Shown piece after piece: positions 1,699 to 33,032 of a stretch of 45,014 nt of DNA (positions are counted from its first letter, which is position 1; each line of letters starts with the position of its first letter). The notes under the pieces were generated by a model. It was not told where the DNA came from. It saw nothing but the letters and a program-made list of their open reading frames with translations, and did no database searches. The position numbers and the translations under genes were made by a program. The stretch spans positions 1 through 45,014 of the forward strand of contig NZ_JAOPXQ010000047.1 of assembly GCF_025965075.1 (NCBI RefSeq). The letters are read 5' to 3'. This DNA is from Aeromicrobium sp. Its GTDB lineage: Bacteria; Actinomycetota; Actinomycetes; Propionibacteriales; Nocardioidaceae.

Positions 1699-2669
1699 TG
1701 GTCGACGTCTCTGACCTGTCCGACGACGTCCGGGTGGGCAAGCGGGCCGCGATCTCGCGGGCCATCACGCTGGTCGAGTCGAGCCGGGCCGACCACCGGG
1801 CCGAGGCGCGCGAGCTGCTCGGGATCCTGACCCCCGAGGCCGGGGGAGCCATCCGGGTCGGGATCTCGGGTGTCCCGGGAGTCGGCAAGTCGACGTTCAT
1901 CGAGGCCCTGGGCAGCCACCTGATCGAGGAGGGCCACCGGGTCGGTGTGCTCGCGGTCGACCCGTCCAGCGTACGCACGGGAGGCTCGGTCCTCGGCGAC
2001 AAGACTCGTATGTCGACGCTCGCGGTCAGCCCCGACGCGTACATCCGGCCCTCGCCCAGCGCCGGAACGCTCGGCGGGGTCGCCCGCGCCACGAGCCAGG
2101 CCATGACGATCCTCGAGGCGGCCGGCTACGACGTGATTCTCGTCGAGACCGTCGGTGTGGGGCAGTCCGAGATCACGGTCGCGGGGATGGTCGACACGTT
2201 CCTGTTTTTGACCATCGCCCGCACGGGTGACCAGCTCCAGGGCATCAAGAAGGGCATCCTGGAGATCGCCGACGTCGTCGCGGTCAACAAGGCCGACGGC
2301 GACCGGGCCCAGGAGGCCGAGGTGACGGCCAAGGATCTCGCCGGCGCGCTGCGGCTCGTGCACGCCGGCACGCAGGGCTGGGTCCCGCCGGTGCTGACCT
2401 GCTCGGCGCTCGACGGCACCGGGATCGACACGGTGTGGAGCCGGATCATCCGGCACCGCGAGTTCCTCGGCACCCGCGGGCTGCGCGAGAAGCGGGCCCA
2501 GCAGCAGCTCGACTTCACCTGGGCGCTGGTCCGCGACGAGCTCGACCAGCGGCTGCGCAGCGATCCCAGCGTCGCCGCCGTCCGGGCCGAGATCCGCGAG
2601 GCCGTGCTGTCGGGCGAGATGCCGGCCGCCACCGCCGCCGACCAGATCCTCGCCGCCTACGACTCCTGA
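1698..2669 (+). CDS. meaB: Methylmalonyl Co-A mutase-associated GTPase MeaB
   Basis: ATG overlaps the mutB stop (TGATG); P-loop GISGVPGVGKSTFIEALG, NKADGD, typical ArgK/MeaB sequence. Confidence 0.95.
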   Translation: MVDVSDLSDDVRVGKRAAISRAITLVESSRADHRAEARELLGILTPEAGGAIRVGISGVPGVGKSTFIEALGSHLIEEGHRVGVLAVDPSSVRTGGSVLGDKTRMSTLAVSPDAYIRPSPSAGTLGGVARATSQAMTILEAAGYDVILVETVGVGQSEITVAGMVDTFLFLTIARTGDQLQGIKKGILEIADVVAVNKADGDRAQEAEVTAKDLAGALRLVHAGTQGWVPPVLTCSALDGTGIDTVWSRIIRHREFLGTRGLREKRAQQQLDFTWALVRDELDQRLRSDPSVAAVRAEIREAVLSGEMPAATAADQILAAYDS

Positions 2670-2675
2670 CCCCCC

Positions 2676-2784
2676 GCGATCCGCGAGTGGCGGAAAGCGA
2701 TCCGCGAGTGGCGGAAAGTGCAGTTCTTGGGACGGCGTGTCGTCCACTTCTGCGCCACTCGCGGGATGGTCTGCGCCACTCGCG
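2676..2784. repeat. Mirror-symmetric intergenic repeat element: 2 tandem 21-bp units, spacer, 2 inverted 21-bp-spaced units
   Basis: GCGATCCGCGAGTGGCGGAAA at 2676-2696 and 2697-2717 (identical); CTGCGCCACTCGCG at 2750-2763 and 2771-2784; the two sides share inverted GAGTGGCG/CGCCACTC cores; GGACG-GCGTGT-CGTCC hairpin in the centre. Confidence 0.85.
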
Positions 2785-2914
2785 CTACTGCGTGATCCGC
2801 GGTGCACCTTCCCGCACCCGGCCAGCAGCAGTCCGACGCCGTGACAGTAGGGGACCGGTCAGCGTCACACCCGCTCGGCTGGGGCGATCCGTCCCGCTGT
2901 GACAGGATCGGGAA

Positions 2915-3706
2915 GTGAAGCGAACCGTCTCGGCCCACCTCCAGCTCCACCTCCACGGCGAGGCCGACCTGATCTTCTCGATCGCGGTCGCCGAGCGCGA
3001 GGGCGTGAGCGAGAAGCTCGAGATCACCTCCGGCGGGACGAGGCTCGAGGCGCAGGAGATCGTGGGTCGCCACGGCACTCGCCTGCACCGGCTGACCGGA
3101 CCGGTCGGGCCCATGGTGATCGACTACTCCGCGGAGATCACGGGGCAGGCCGAGCCCGCCCCGATCGAGCAGCTCGACATCATCGAGTACCGCCGGCCGA
3201 GCCGCTACTGCGAGTCCGACACGCTCTTCGCGACCGCGCAGTCGGAGTTCGCCGGGGTCCACGGCAAGGAGCTCCTCGACGCCGTGAGCTCGTGGGTGGG
3301 GGACAAGCTGACGTACGTCCCAGGGGCCAGCCAGCCGACCGACGGTGCCGTTGCGACGATGCTGGCGCGCAAGGGGGTCTGCCGCGACTACGCGCACCTC
3401 GTCGTGGCGCTGCTGCGCTCGCTCGACGTCCCGGCCCGCCTCGCCTCGGTCTACGCCCCGGGCCTCTTTCCGATGGACTTCCACGCCGTCGCGGAGGCGT
3501 ACGTCGAGGGGTCCTGGCGGGTCGTCGACGCGACCGCGCTGGCGCCCCGCAGCAGCCTGGTGCGGATCGCGACGGGGCAGGACGCCTCCGAGACGGCGTT
3601 CCTGTCGCAGCACGGTGCCGCCGTCGACCTGCGGTGGATGGCCGTGACGGCCGTCGTCGACGCGCTGCCGGGCGACGACCTGACCGAGCTCGTCTCGCTG
3701 CGCTGA
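2915..3706 (+). CDS. Transglutaminase-like family protein
   Basis: GTG start; ARKGVCRDYAHLVVALLRSLDVPARLASVYAPG...DFHAVAEAYVEGSWRVVDAT has the Cys/His/Asp transglutaminase core. Confidence 0.9.
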   Translation: MKRTVSAHLQLHLHGEADLIFSIAVAEREGVSEKLEITSGGTRLEAQEIVGRHGTRLHRLTGPVGPMVIDYSAEITGQAEPAPIEQLDIIEYRRPSRYCESDTLFATAQSEFAGVHGKELLDAVSSWVGDKLTYVPGASQPTDGAVATMLARKGVCRDYAHLVVALLRSLDVPARLASVYAPGLFPMDFHAVAEAYVEGSWRVVDATALAPRSSLVRIATGQDASETAFLSQHGAAVDLRWMAVTAVVDALPGDDLTELVSLR

Positions 3707-30497: not shown

Positions 30498-33032
30498 GTG
30501 GGTGAGAATGGCTCGGTGCGCCGCTTCGTCCTCGTGACCTCCTCCGTGCTGTTGCTGGCCGTCCTCGGGGCGGCGATCTTCTCGTTCGTCACGGTCCGCA
30601 AGTCGTTCCCCGACACGACCGGGGAGCTGACCGCGAGCGCGCTCAAGGGCACCGTCACGGTCCAGCGGGACGGCAAGGGCATCCCGCAGATCTATGCCGA
30701 CAATCCCGAGGACCTGTTCTTCGCGCAGGGCTTCGTCCAGGCGCAGGACCGCTTCTACGAGATGGACTTCCGCCGCCACGTCACGGCCGGGCGCCTGTCC
30801 GAGCTGGTCGGCGAGGGGGGGCTGGAGACCGACAAGTTCGTCCGCACGCTGGGCTGGCGCCGCACCGCCGAGAAGGAGCTGGCCCTCCTCGACGACACGA
30901 CGCTCTCGCTCGTCCGGGCGTACGCCCGAGGGGTCAACGAGTACATCGACGACCGGTCGGCGTCCCAGCTGTCGCTGGAGTACTCCGTCCTGTCGCTGAC
31001 CGGGCCGGACTACACGCCCGAGCCGTGGACCGCGGTCGACTCGCTGGCCTGGATCAAGGCCATGGCGTGGGACCTGCGCAGCAACATGGATGACGAGATC
31101 ACCCGGGTGCTGTCGACCGCCAAGCTGTCGGTCGACGAGGTCGAGGAGCTCTACCCTGGCTATCCCTCGGACCACGCCACGATCGCCGGCGAGGGCACCG
31201 TCGGGGGTGGCACGTTCCGCCGGACGGTGACACCCGATCCGGCCCTGGCCCGCTCCGCCGTGGCCTCGCTGTCGTCGGCACAGAAGGGCGCCGAGGCGTT
31301 GCCCGCGCTGCTGGGCATCGGGGAGGGCATCGGCTCCAACTCGTGGGTCGTCGACGGCGAGCACTCCACGACGGGCAAGCCGATCCTGGCCAACGACCCG
31401 CACCTGGCGCCCTCGATGCCGGGCATCTGGTACCAGGTCGGGCTGCACTGCCGCACCGTCAGCGCGGCCTGCCCGTACGACGTCTCGGGCTTCTCGTTCG
31501 CGGGTCTGCCCGGCGTGGTCGTCGGCCACAACGACCGGATCGCGTGGGGCGTCACGACGATGTACGCCGACGTCGCGGACCTGTACCTCGAGAAGGTCAC
31601 CGGCGACACGTACGAGTACGACGGACGGCAGCTCCCGCTCGAGACCCGTCAGGAGACGTTCGAGGTCGCGGACGGGGACACCGAGCGGATCACAGTCCGG
31701 TCGACCCGACACGGACCGATCCTGTCCGACCTCGACGACGACCTGTCGAGGGATGTCGCCGACGTCGGGGCGGGCCAGCAGGCCACGGCGACCCGAGGCG
31801 CGTACGAGGTGTCGCTCGGCTGGACCGCGCTGACGCCCGAGCCCACGATCAAGGCGGTCTTCGCCCTCGACAAGGCGCAGGACTGGGACGACTTCCGGGC
31901 CGCGGCGAAGCTGTTCACGGTGCCGGCGCAGAACCTCGTGTACGCCGACCGGGCCGGCAACATCGGCTATCAGTCGCCCGGCACGATCCCGGTGCGCCGC
32001 AAGGGCGACGGCCGGTGGCCGGTCCCCGGCTGGGACAAGAGCTACGGCTGGACGGGGACGATCCCGTTCGAGGAGCTCCCGACGGTCTACAACCCCGACG
32101 AGGGCTTCATCGTCACGGCCAACAACCGGGTCATCGGCAACCAGTACCCGCACGTCCTGGGTGCCGACACCGCCGACGGCTACCGGTCCGAGCGCATCCG
32201 TGACCTCATCACGGCCAAGGACAAGCTCAGCGTCGCGGACATGTCGCGGATCCAGAACGACACCTACAGCGCCAACGCCGCCCGGCTCGTGCCGGAGCTG
32301 CTCCGGATCCAGCTCGAGAGCGCCTACTACCGCCAGGGGCAGGCGACCCTCCGCGGGTGGGACTTCCGCCAGGACGTCGACTCGCCCGGTGCGGCGTACT
32401 TCAACGCGGTCTGGCGGCACCTGCTCGAGCGGACGTTCCACGACGAGCTGCCCAAGAACGCCTGGCCGACCGGTGGGGAGCGGTGGTTCACGATCGTCGC
32501 GAGCATCCTCGACCAACCCGGCAACCACTGGTGGGACGACACCACGACTCCGGGCATCAAGGAGACGCGCGACGAGATCCTCGCCGACGCGATGCGGGCC
32601 GCGCGGGACGAGCTGACGATGATCCAGTCCCGCAGCCCGAGCGAGTGGCGGTGGGGCACGATGCACAAGCTCGAGCTCGTCAACCCGACCCTGGGTGACT
32701 CGGGCGTCGGCCTGGTCAACCGCATCTTCAACCGTGGCCCGTTCAAGGTCGGTGGCGGCAGCGGCATCGTCGACGCGACGAGCTGGGACGCCACGGAGGG
32801 CTACGAGGTCACCGCGGTGCCGTCGATGCGGATGGTCGTGGACCTGGGCAATCTCGACCGCTCCCGCTGGATCCAGCTGACCGGCAACTCCGGTCACGCG
32901 TTCGACGACCACTACCTCGACCAGGCGCCGCTGTGGGCCAAGGGCGAGACGCTGCCGTGGGCGTTCGGCCGCAAGGCCGTGGCCGCATCGACCGACGACA
33001 CGCTGACGCTCAAGCCCAGCGGGACGAGCTAG
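30498..33032 (+). CDS. Penicillin acylase family protein (Ntn hydrolase)
   Basis: GTVTVQRDGKGIPQIYADNPEDLFFAQGFVQAQDRFYEMDFRRH; autoprocessing site IGSNSWVVDGEHSTTGKPILANDPHL. GTG at 30516 is an alternative start. Confidence 0.95.
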   Translation: MGENGSVRRFVLVTSSVLLLAVLGAAIFSFVTVRKSFPDTTGELTASALKGTVTVQRDGKGIPQIYADNPEDLFFAQGFVQAQDRFYEMDFRRHVTAGRLSELVGEGGLETDKFVRTLGWRRTAEKELALLDDTTLSLVRAYARGVNEYIDDRSASQLSLEYSVLSLTGPDYTPEPWTAVDSLAWIKAMAWDLRSNMDDEITRVLSTAKLSVDEVEELYPGYPSDHATIAGEGTVGGGTFRRTVTPDPALARSAVASLSSAQKGAEALPALLGIGEGIGSNSWVVDGEHSTTGKPILANDPHLAPSMPGIWYQVGLHCRTVSAACPYDVSGFSFAGLPGVVVGHNDRIAWGVTTMYADVADLYLEKVTGDTYEYDGRQLPLETRQETFEVADGDTERITVRSTRHGPILSDLDDDLSRDVADVGAGQQATATRGAYEVSLGWTALTPEPTIKAVFALDKAQDWDDFRAAAKLFTVPAQNLVYADRAGNIGYQSPGTIPVRRKGDGRWPVPGWDKSYGWTGTIPFEELPTVYNPDEGFIVTANNRVIGNQYPHVLGADTADGYRSERIRDLITAKDKLSVADMSRIQNDTYSANAARLVPELLRIQLESAYYRQGQATLRGWDFRQDVDSPGAAYFNAVWRHLLERTFHDELPKNAWPTGGERWFTIVASILDQPGNHWWDDTTTPGIKETRDEILADAMRAARDELTMIQSRSPSEWRWGTMHKLELVNPTLGDSGVGLVNRIFNRGPFKVGGGSGIVDATSWDATEGYEVTAVPSMRMVVDLGNLDRSRWIQLTGNSGHAFDDHYLDQAPLWAKGETLPWAFGRKAVAASTDDTLTLKPSGTS

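Follow-up and report, generated by a model that had tools for sequence, protein, structure and literature searches.

A dispersed hairpin repeat family of Aeromicrobium and its association with a nuclease-like gene

The window analysed here, a stretch of 45,014 nucleotides from an Aeromicrobium genome, carries between two putative genes a mirror-image repeat that belongs to a family of dispersed hairpins. Copies of this family lie mostly just behind stop codons, keep a constrained core at orthologous sites, show covariation of the hairpin in one clade, and occur together with a nuclease-like gene that is bracketed by two inward-facing copies. We think it probable that these elements are a non-autonomous, REPIN-like family whose partner is this low-copy gene, encoding an AbiEi-like/DUF559/Vsr-like nuclease of the PD-(D/E)XK type. 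The association of element and gene is well supported; that the protein would bind, cut and copy the element is suggested by its predicted fold and by the precedent of REPINs and RAYTs (PMC3116915, PMC3733652).

The element and its family

The whole element occupies positions 2676-2784 of the + strand, as indicated by the sequence, by its BLAST copies and by a covariance-model match at 2701-2782. It starts 7 bp past the stop codon of a putative meaB-like GTPase gene (1698-2669, +) and is followed by a putative transglutaminase-like gene (2915-3706, +); both genes were called from their open reading frames and codon usage, and their names are those of the original prediction. Homologs of the meaB-like gene with 74-98% identity are present in 46 of 49 Aeromicrobium genomes. 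The left side of the element consists of two 21-bp units on the + strand, an outer copy of GCGATCCGCGAGTGGCGGAAA at 2676-2696 and an inner one, again GCGATCCGCGAGTGGCGGAAA, at 2697-2717; the two are 100% identical, and the family consensus of the inner unit is CCGCGASTGGCGCA. The head that follows contains a conserved loop (2727-2741, +), which reads TTGGGACGGCGTGTC here and TGRGACGGCGNGTC in the family consensus, columns 28-41 being nearly invariant among 154 copies. It also contains a small hairpin, GGACG/CGTCC (2730-2745, +; arms 2730-2734 and 2741-2745), evident in both sequence and fold. On the right are two inverted units on the - strand, each reading TCTGCGCCACTCGCG, at 2749-2763 (conserved in the family as TGCGCCASTCG) and 2770-2784 (conserved as TGCGCCACTCG). 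These units are 15 bp each, 100% identical and spaced 21 bp from start to start.

The 21-bp-periodic mirror repeat with its GGACG/CGTCC hairpin, as originally predicted, is confirmed by the sequence. The long hairpin that was expected of it is borne out as well: the inverted arms at 2682-2713 and 2753-2784 are complementary at 81% across 32 nt, and each strand folds better than all 200 of 200 shuffles (z -3.3). Likewise, the window holds no second copy, the sole other exact 10-mer being a lone, intragenic match at 32641. A search of positions 2400-3200 against Rfam matched no curated model at E 1 or better.

In the family as a whole, an 82-bp core is made up of a 21-bp unit on the left, single or repeated up to several times in tandem, a head containing TGRGACGGCGNGTC, and two inverted units. 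Across the 82 columns of 154 full copies, the order is CCGCGASTGGCGCA, a variable stretch, TGRGACGGCGNGTC, a second variable stretch, TGCGCCASTCG, a spacer, and TGCGCCACTCG. The number of left units ranges from one up to several, and nearly all copies have two right units. Judging from the consensus, every unit is nearly palindromic around a centre that is free to be G or C. The ends of the consensus bear neither a GTAG nor a CGTC tag; CGTC is present only within the head. Distant Aeromicrobium species have the same arms with wholly different heads (L061, L066, L071, L086, L091, L093 and L095), which looks as if heads had been exchanged on constant arms.

The Aeromicrobium genome that holds the window contains at least 36 distinct copies of the same geometry and spacing (distinct places counted among 69 BLAST rows), so the repeat in the window is beyond chance. 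A covariance model made from 49 copies and run on 49 Aeromicrobium genomes located the family in 24 of them, leaving 25 without it; closely related species exist without any family member, and the per-genome counts of this model hold some double hits from the two strands of one palindrome. A single copy without conservation in relatives, an outcome for which the original prediction had allowed, is not what these counts show, and the dispersed, extragenic character that it proposed agrees with the finding that only 5 of 157 copies fall within called genes. A scan of 84,980 species returned 34 matching stretches, all from Aeromicrobium, and 22 genomes drawn from other families in the order lack the 31-bp tandem-pair pattern. 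No plasmid, phage or viral contig matched the element, and an origin from any of these was rejected on that ground. Around the likely replication terminus of G029 and G012, copies are few, with gaps of ~1.0-1.1 Mb (p 0.008 and 0.025); avoidance of the terminus was not relied on because G008 and G034 lack such large gaps.

Placement beside genes and constraint

Placement was judged from 157 copies in nine genomes, falling into 74 orthology groups, with a simple codon-usage gene caller. Taken in the orientation of the element, the flanking genes are ++ around 66 copies, +- around 49, and -- around 27; only 10 of the 157 lie between divergent genes (-+), and five are intragenic. Copies are found mostly close behind a stop codon, at a median distance of 12 bp in ++ contexts, and the direction of the element favours that of the upstream gene (66:27, p 6e-5; per site 28:13, p 0.03). 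Within the ++ contexts, 43 of 66 copies are no more than 60 bp from the next gene. The five intragenic copies (L042, L166, L227, L254 and L267) would be translated as repeats within the called genes; the proposal that the element reads as heptapeptides and may be mis-annotated as small open reading frames is relevant for these five and not for the remainder.

Identity at orthologous sites is 92% in the core columns, compared with 62% at fourfold sites of the flanking genes and 62% in the element's own spacer columns, a contrast that somewhat overstates the constraint because well-conserved copies are easier to detect and conservation was also the criterion by which the core columns were picked. 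The spacers at orthologous sites of G000 and G029 are no more similar (0.62) than those of unrelated copies, as homogenisation among the copies of one genome might produce; spacers of closer pairs retain a signal of orthology. The meaB junction contains the element in G000, G065, G029, G012 and G008, and in several relatives the meaB-transglutaminase pair adjoins with the junction empty. Filled and empty junctions are too diverged to define a target-site duplication.

Covariation of the hairpin is confined to part of the family. In three genomes of one clade (G008, G011 and G033), the two variable stretches form pairs that covary in the upper stem, with 45 doubly changed cells vs 21.9 +/- 3.0 in shuffled alignments and at most 10 in slid ones. 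In the clade of the window these stretches are unpaired in the upper-stem register, and a variable pair of the lower stem (columns 8/58) has no compensatory change. The covariation suggested as a check on the original prediction was found in the upper stem of one clade; covariation along the whole arm lacks support, both in the lower stem and in the window's clade.

Together, these observations raise the idea that the element is a hairpin of the 3' untranslated region that serves the host in mRNA end protection, processing or termination, and that it was perhaps once mobile and has been kept for its effect on the preceding genes. Its position just past stop codons, its bias toward the direction of the upstream gene and the covarying upper stem of one clade all fit such a role, and constraint on the core at fixed sites fits a host function as well. 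On the other hand, the variable pairs of the lower stem are uncompensated, the family is wholly missing from closely related species, and neither the bracketing of the nuclease gene nor its co-occurrence with the element (below) would be explained. The plain terminator is disfavoured in particular because so many ++ copies crowd the next gene and because the copies read show no T-run behind their right units; it was for want of this U-run after the hairpin that an intrinsic terminator was rejected. We regard a host-serving hairpin as rather unlikely.

A nuclease-like gene bracketed by the element

The REPIN-like reading draws support from a gene for an AbiEi-like/DUF559-like protein of ~325 aa, which is present in low copy (one or two per genome). 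In G008 there are 9 close element pairs within 3 kb vs 1.45 expected, most of them + then -, and several close pairs bracket this one gene. Homologs of at least 49% identity are found in 16 of the 24 element-bearing genomes and in 0 of the 25 element-free ones (Fisher p 2e-7, with species taken as independent, which they are not). All 18 of the 18 well-resolved copies of the gene have an element on each side, facing inward (+ on the left, - on the right) for either strand of the gene. Flanking elements are present at 0 of 9 loci of paralogs with no more than 34% identity, and two more diverged members (L362 and L363) have weak flanking matches. Element copies are also more numerous where the gene is present (p 0.005, a value that rests on the same false assumption of independent species).

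The gene with its two elements occupies several different sites, and its neighbours vary accordingly (rpsF, MOSC and others). The rpsF-MOSC site carries the nuclease gene and adjacent element units in ten genomes; in four element-free genomes rpsF and MOSC adjoin. Another orthologous site holds element, nuclease gene and element in G008 (L316), and two close elements with no gene in G062 (L333). Divergence of the nuclease follows that of MeaB and the host (rho 0.91, ten genomes), and thus, inheritance of the gene is mostly vertical, like that of RAYTs. Broken-looking copies are present in G012 and G036, and a copy in G062 contains a TGA. Eight element-positive genomes are without a close homolog, one of them being G011, which is 99% complete and has 16 good element copies. 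G011, and the fact that the model stands without observed movement, are the strongest points against the REPIN-like reading. Some other single genes also lie between two elements; in G008 and G034, for example, this is a GNAT-like gene.

Several lines of evidence bear on the kind of protein that the gene encodes. The protein of this genome passes the Pfam DUF559 gathering score marginally (20.9 vs 20.6 bits), the three partner proteins scanned first fall under it, and some members of the family match AbiEi profiles. D216, E227-x-D229 and H233 are invariant across 17 members. The structure model is confident (pLDDT 89), and its fold matches the catalytic domain of I-Bth0305I, R2 retrotransposon proteins and Rv2827c, all at E above 0.001; a PDB sequence search using the nuclease profile gave nothing useful. 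These results suggest a Vsr/I-Bth0305I-type nuclease in which a predicted PD-(D/E)XK-type domain is combined with an AbiEi-like DNA-binding part. The original prediction had looked to a REP-associated tyrosine transposase as the dedicated partner. A partner gene is indeed found, but it is DUF559-like; a PF01797 search of this genome, in which the controls were detected, yielded no Y1/RAYT gene, and a RAYT partner was rejected for this genome. The guess was wrong in name and close in kind. Titles and abstracts of the library searched yielded no paper that links such repeats to DUF559 or MTES_1575 proteins.

Homologs of the partner protein in other genera share about 34-43% identity with it. Inverted repeats of at least 16 nt flank 14 of 23 of these homologs vs 2 of 209 control genes; their arms are unlike those of Aeromicrobium and sometimes follow the same plan of tandem and inverted units. 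Dispersal of these repeats, judged by 20-kb sampling, was largely negative: 400 kb sampled from three other-genus genomes held no convincing dispersed copy (one match with 3 mismatches was near the shuffled background), and a fourth genome had one two-armed copy in the 400 kb sampled. That copy lies at L451:1124-1176, remote from the nuclease homolog of its genome (L376), which is flanked by GGTGGCGGCACACGACA units ~31 bp apart and by inverted units and belongs to a different genus within the same family. Distant Aeromicrobium paralogs of the nuclease (~30% identity; L354, L356, L357 and L359) lie between long inverted repeats of their own, 22-35 nt, which are unrelated to the element.

Possible mechanism and known systems

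Under the REPIN-like reading, the AbiEi-like part of the protein would bind the 21-bp units, a reasonable supposition because Rv2827c and AbiEi antitoxins bind tandem ~23-bp inverted repeats (PMC7319586). The nuclease would then nick or cut DNA, at the element or at the target, and repair or strand transfer would copy the element to a new place. Most new copies would land just behind genes, where insertion may do little harm. The earlier suggestion that four putative protein sites sit on one face of the DNA is plausible, given the resemblance of the partner to these antitoxins.

Binding of this sort would also be expected if the units were operators of an AbiEi-like regulator and the dispersed copies its regulon. 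AbiEi-family proteins bind their tandem repeats in their own promoters (PMC7319586), units of the element flank the nuclease gene, and AbiEi profiles match its product. Copies are located at gene ends, however, rather than at promoters, and very seldom between divergent genes; the element stands downstream of the nuclease gene besides upstream; and the partner protein has a conserved nuclease-type motif. Such a regulon is quite improbable. Very unlikely, finally, is a MITE belonging to a classical transposon with an undetected transposase, with the nuclease gene as a passenger between two copies, a view that suits the small size, the inverted arms and the other single genes flanked by two elements, but not the repeated bracketing of the same nuclease family at several places, its co-occurrence with the element, or the unrelated inverted repeats around homologs of other genera, which would be unexpected for a passenger.

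REP and REPIN elements have been tied to one enzyme class, the Y1 transposases (PMC3116915, PMC3733652). Beyond the REPIN-like reading of this one family, it is possible, and we suggest it tentatively, that AbiEi-like/DUF559-like nucleases represent a second, independent actinobacterial class of repeat and helper, parallel to REPIN/RAYT, in which each lineage's nuclease would lie between arrays of binding units of its own and would spread hairpin copies through the genome by triggering repair. Arms would then be fixed within Aeromicrobium, heads would change, and arms would differ wholly between genera. A repeat family tied to a nuclease of the PD-(D/E)XK type would in itself show that the long-lived partnership of dispersed hairpins and a nuclease passed on vertically had evolved repeatedly, and it would suggest what a set of unnamed genes in Actinobacteria may do.

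BOX, ERIC and MIRU repeats are modular or palindromic, intergenic, and co-transcribed with neighbouring genes. The element resembles them in its modular, palindromic and intergenic character, as compared by description rather than by sequence; we know of no bracketed nuclease partner for any of them. Homing endonucleases of the I-Bth0305I type (Vsr-like) share the predicted catalytic fold of the partner; here there is no intron or intein, and the gene lies between hairpin repeats. AbiEi/Rv2827c antitoxins (PMC7319586) have a similar fold region and profile matches, whereas the AbiEi-like part of the partner is fused to a nuclease-type domain and the partner gene has no common toxin gene adjoining it at the loci read. 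An AbiE system would be marked by a DUF1814 toxin gene next door, and the neighbours of the partner gene vary from site to site. The more distant homologs and paralogs of the nuclease recall TIRtrons (PMC3733652), in which a nuclease gene lies between long inverted repeats that are dispersed or not, although TIRYTs are Y1 transposases. From REPINs and RAYTs (PMC3116915; REPtrons, PMC3733652) the family differs in its helper, which is DUF559/Vsr-like and AbiEi-like instead of a Y1 (HUH) transposase, in arms built of tandem 21-bp units, in its untagged ends and in its unrelated sequence. The likeness lies in dispersed extragenic hairpins with two inverted arms, and in a low-copy, mostly vertical nuclease gene that is flanked by its own repeats and to which copy number is tied.
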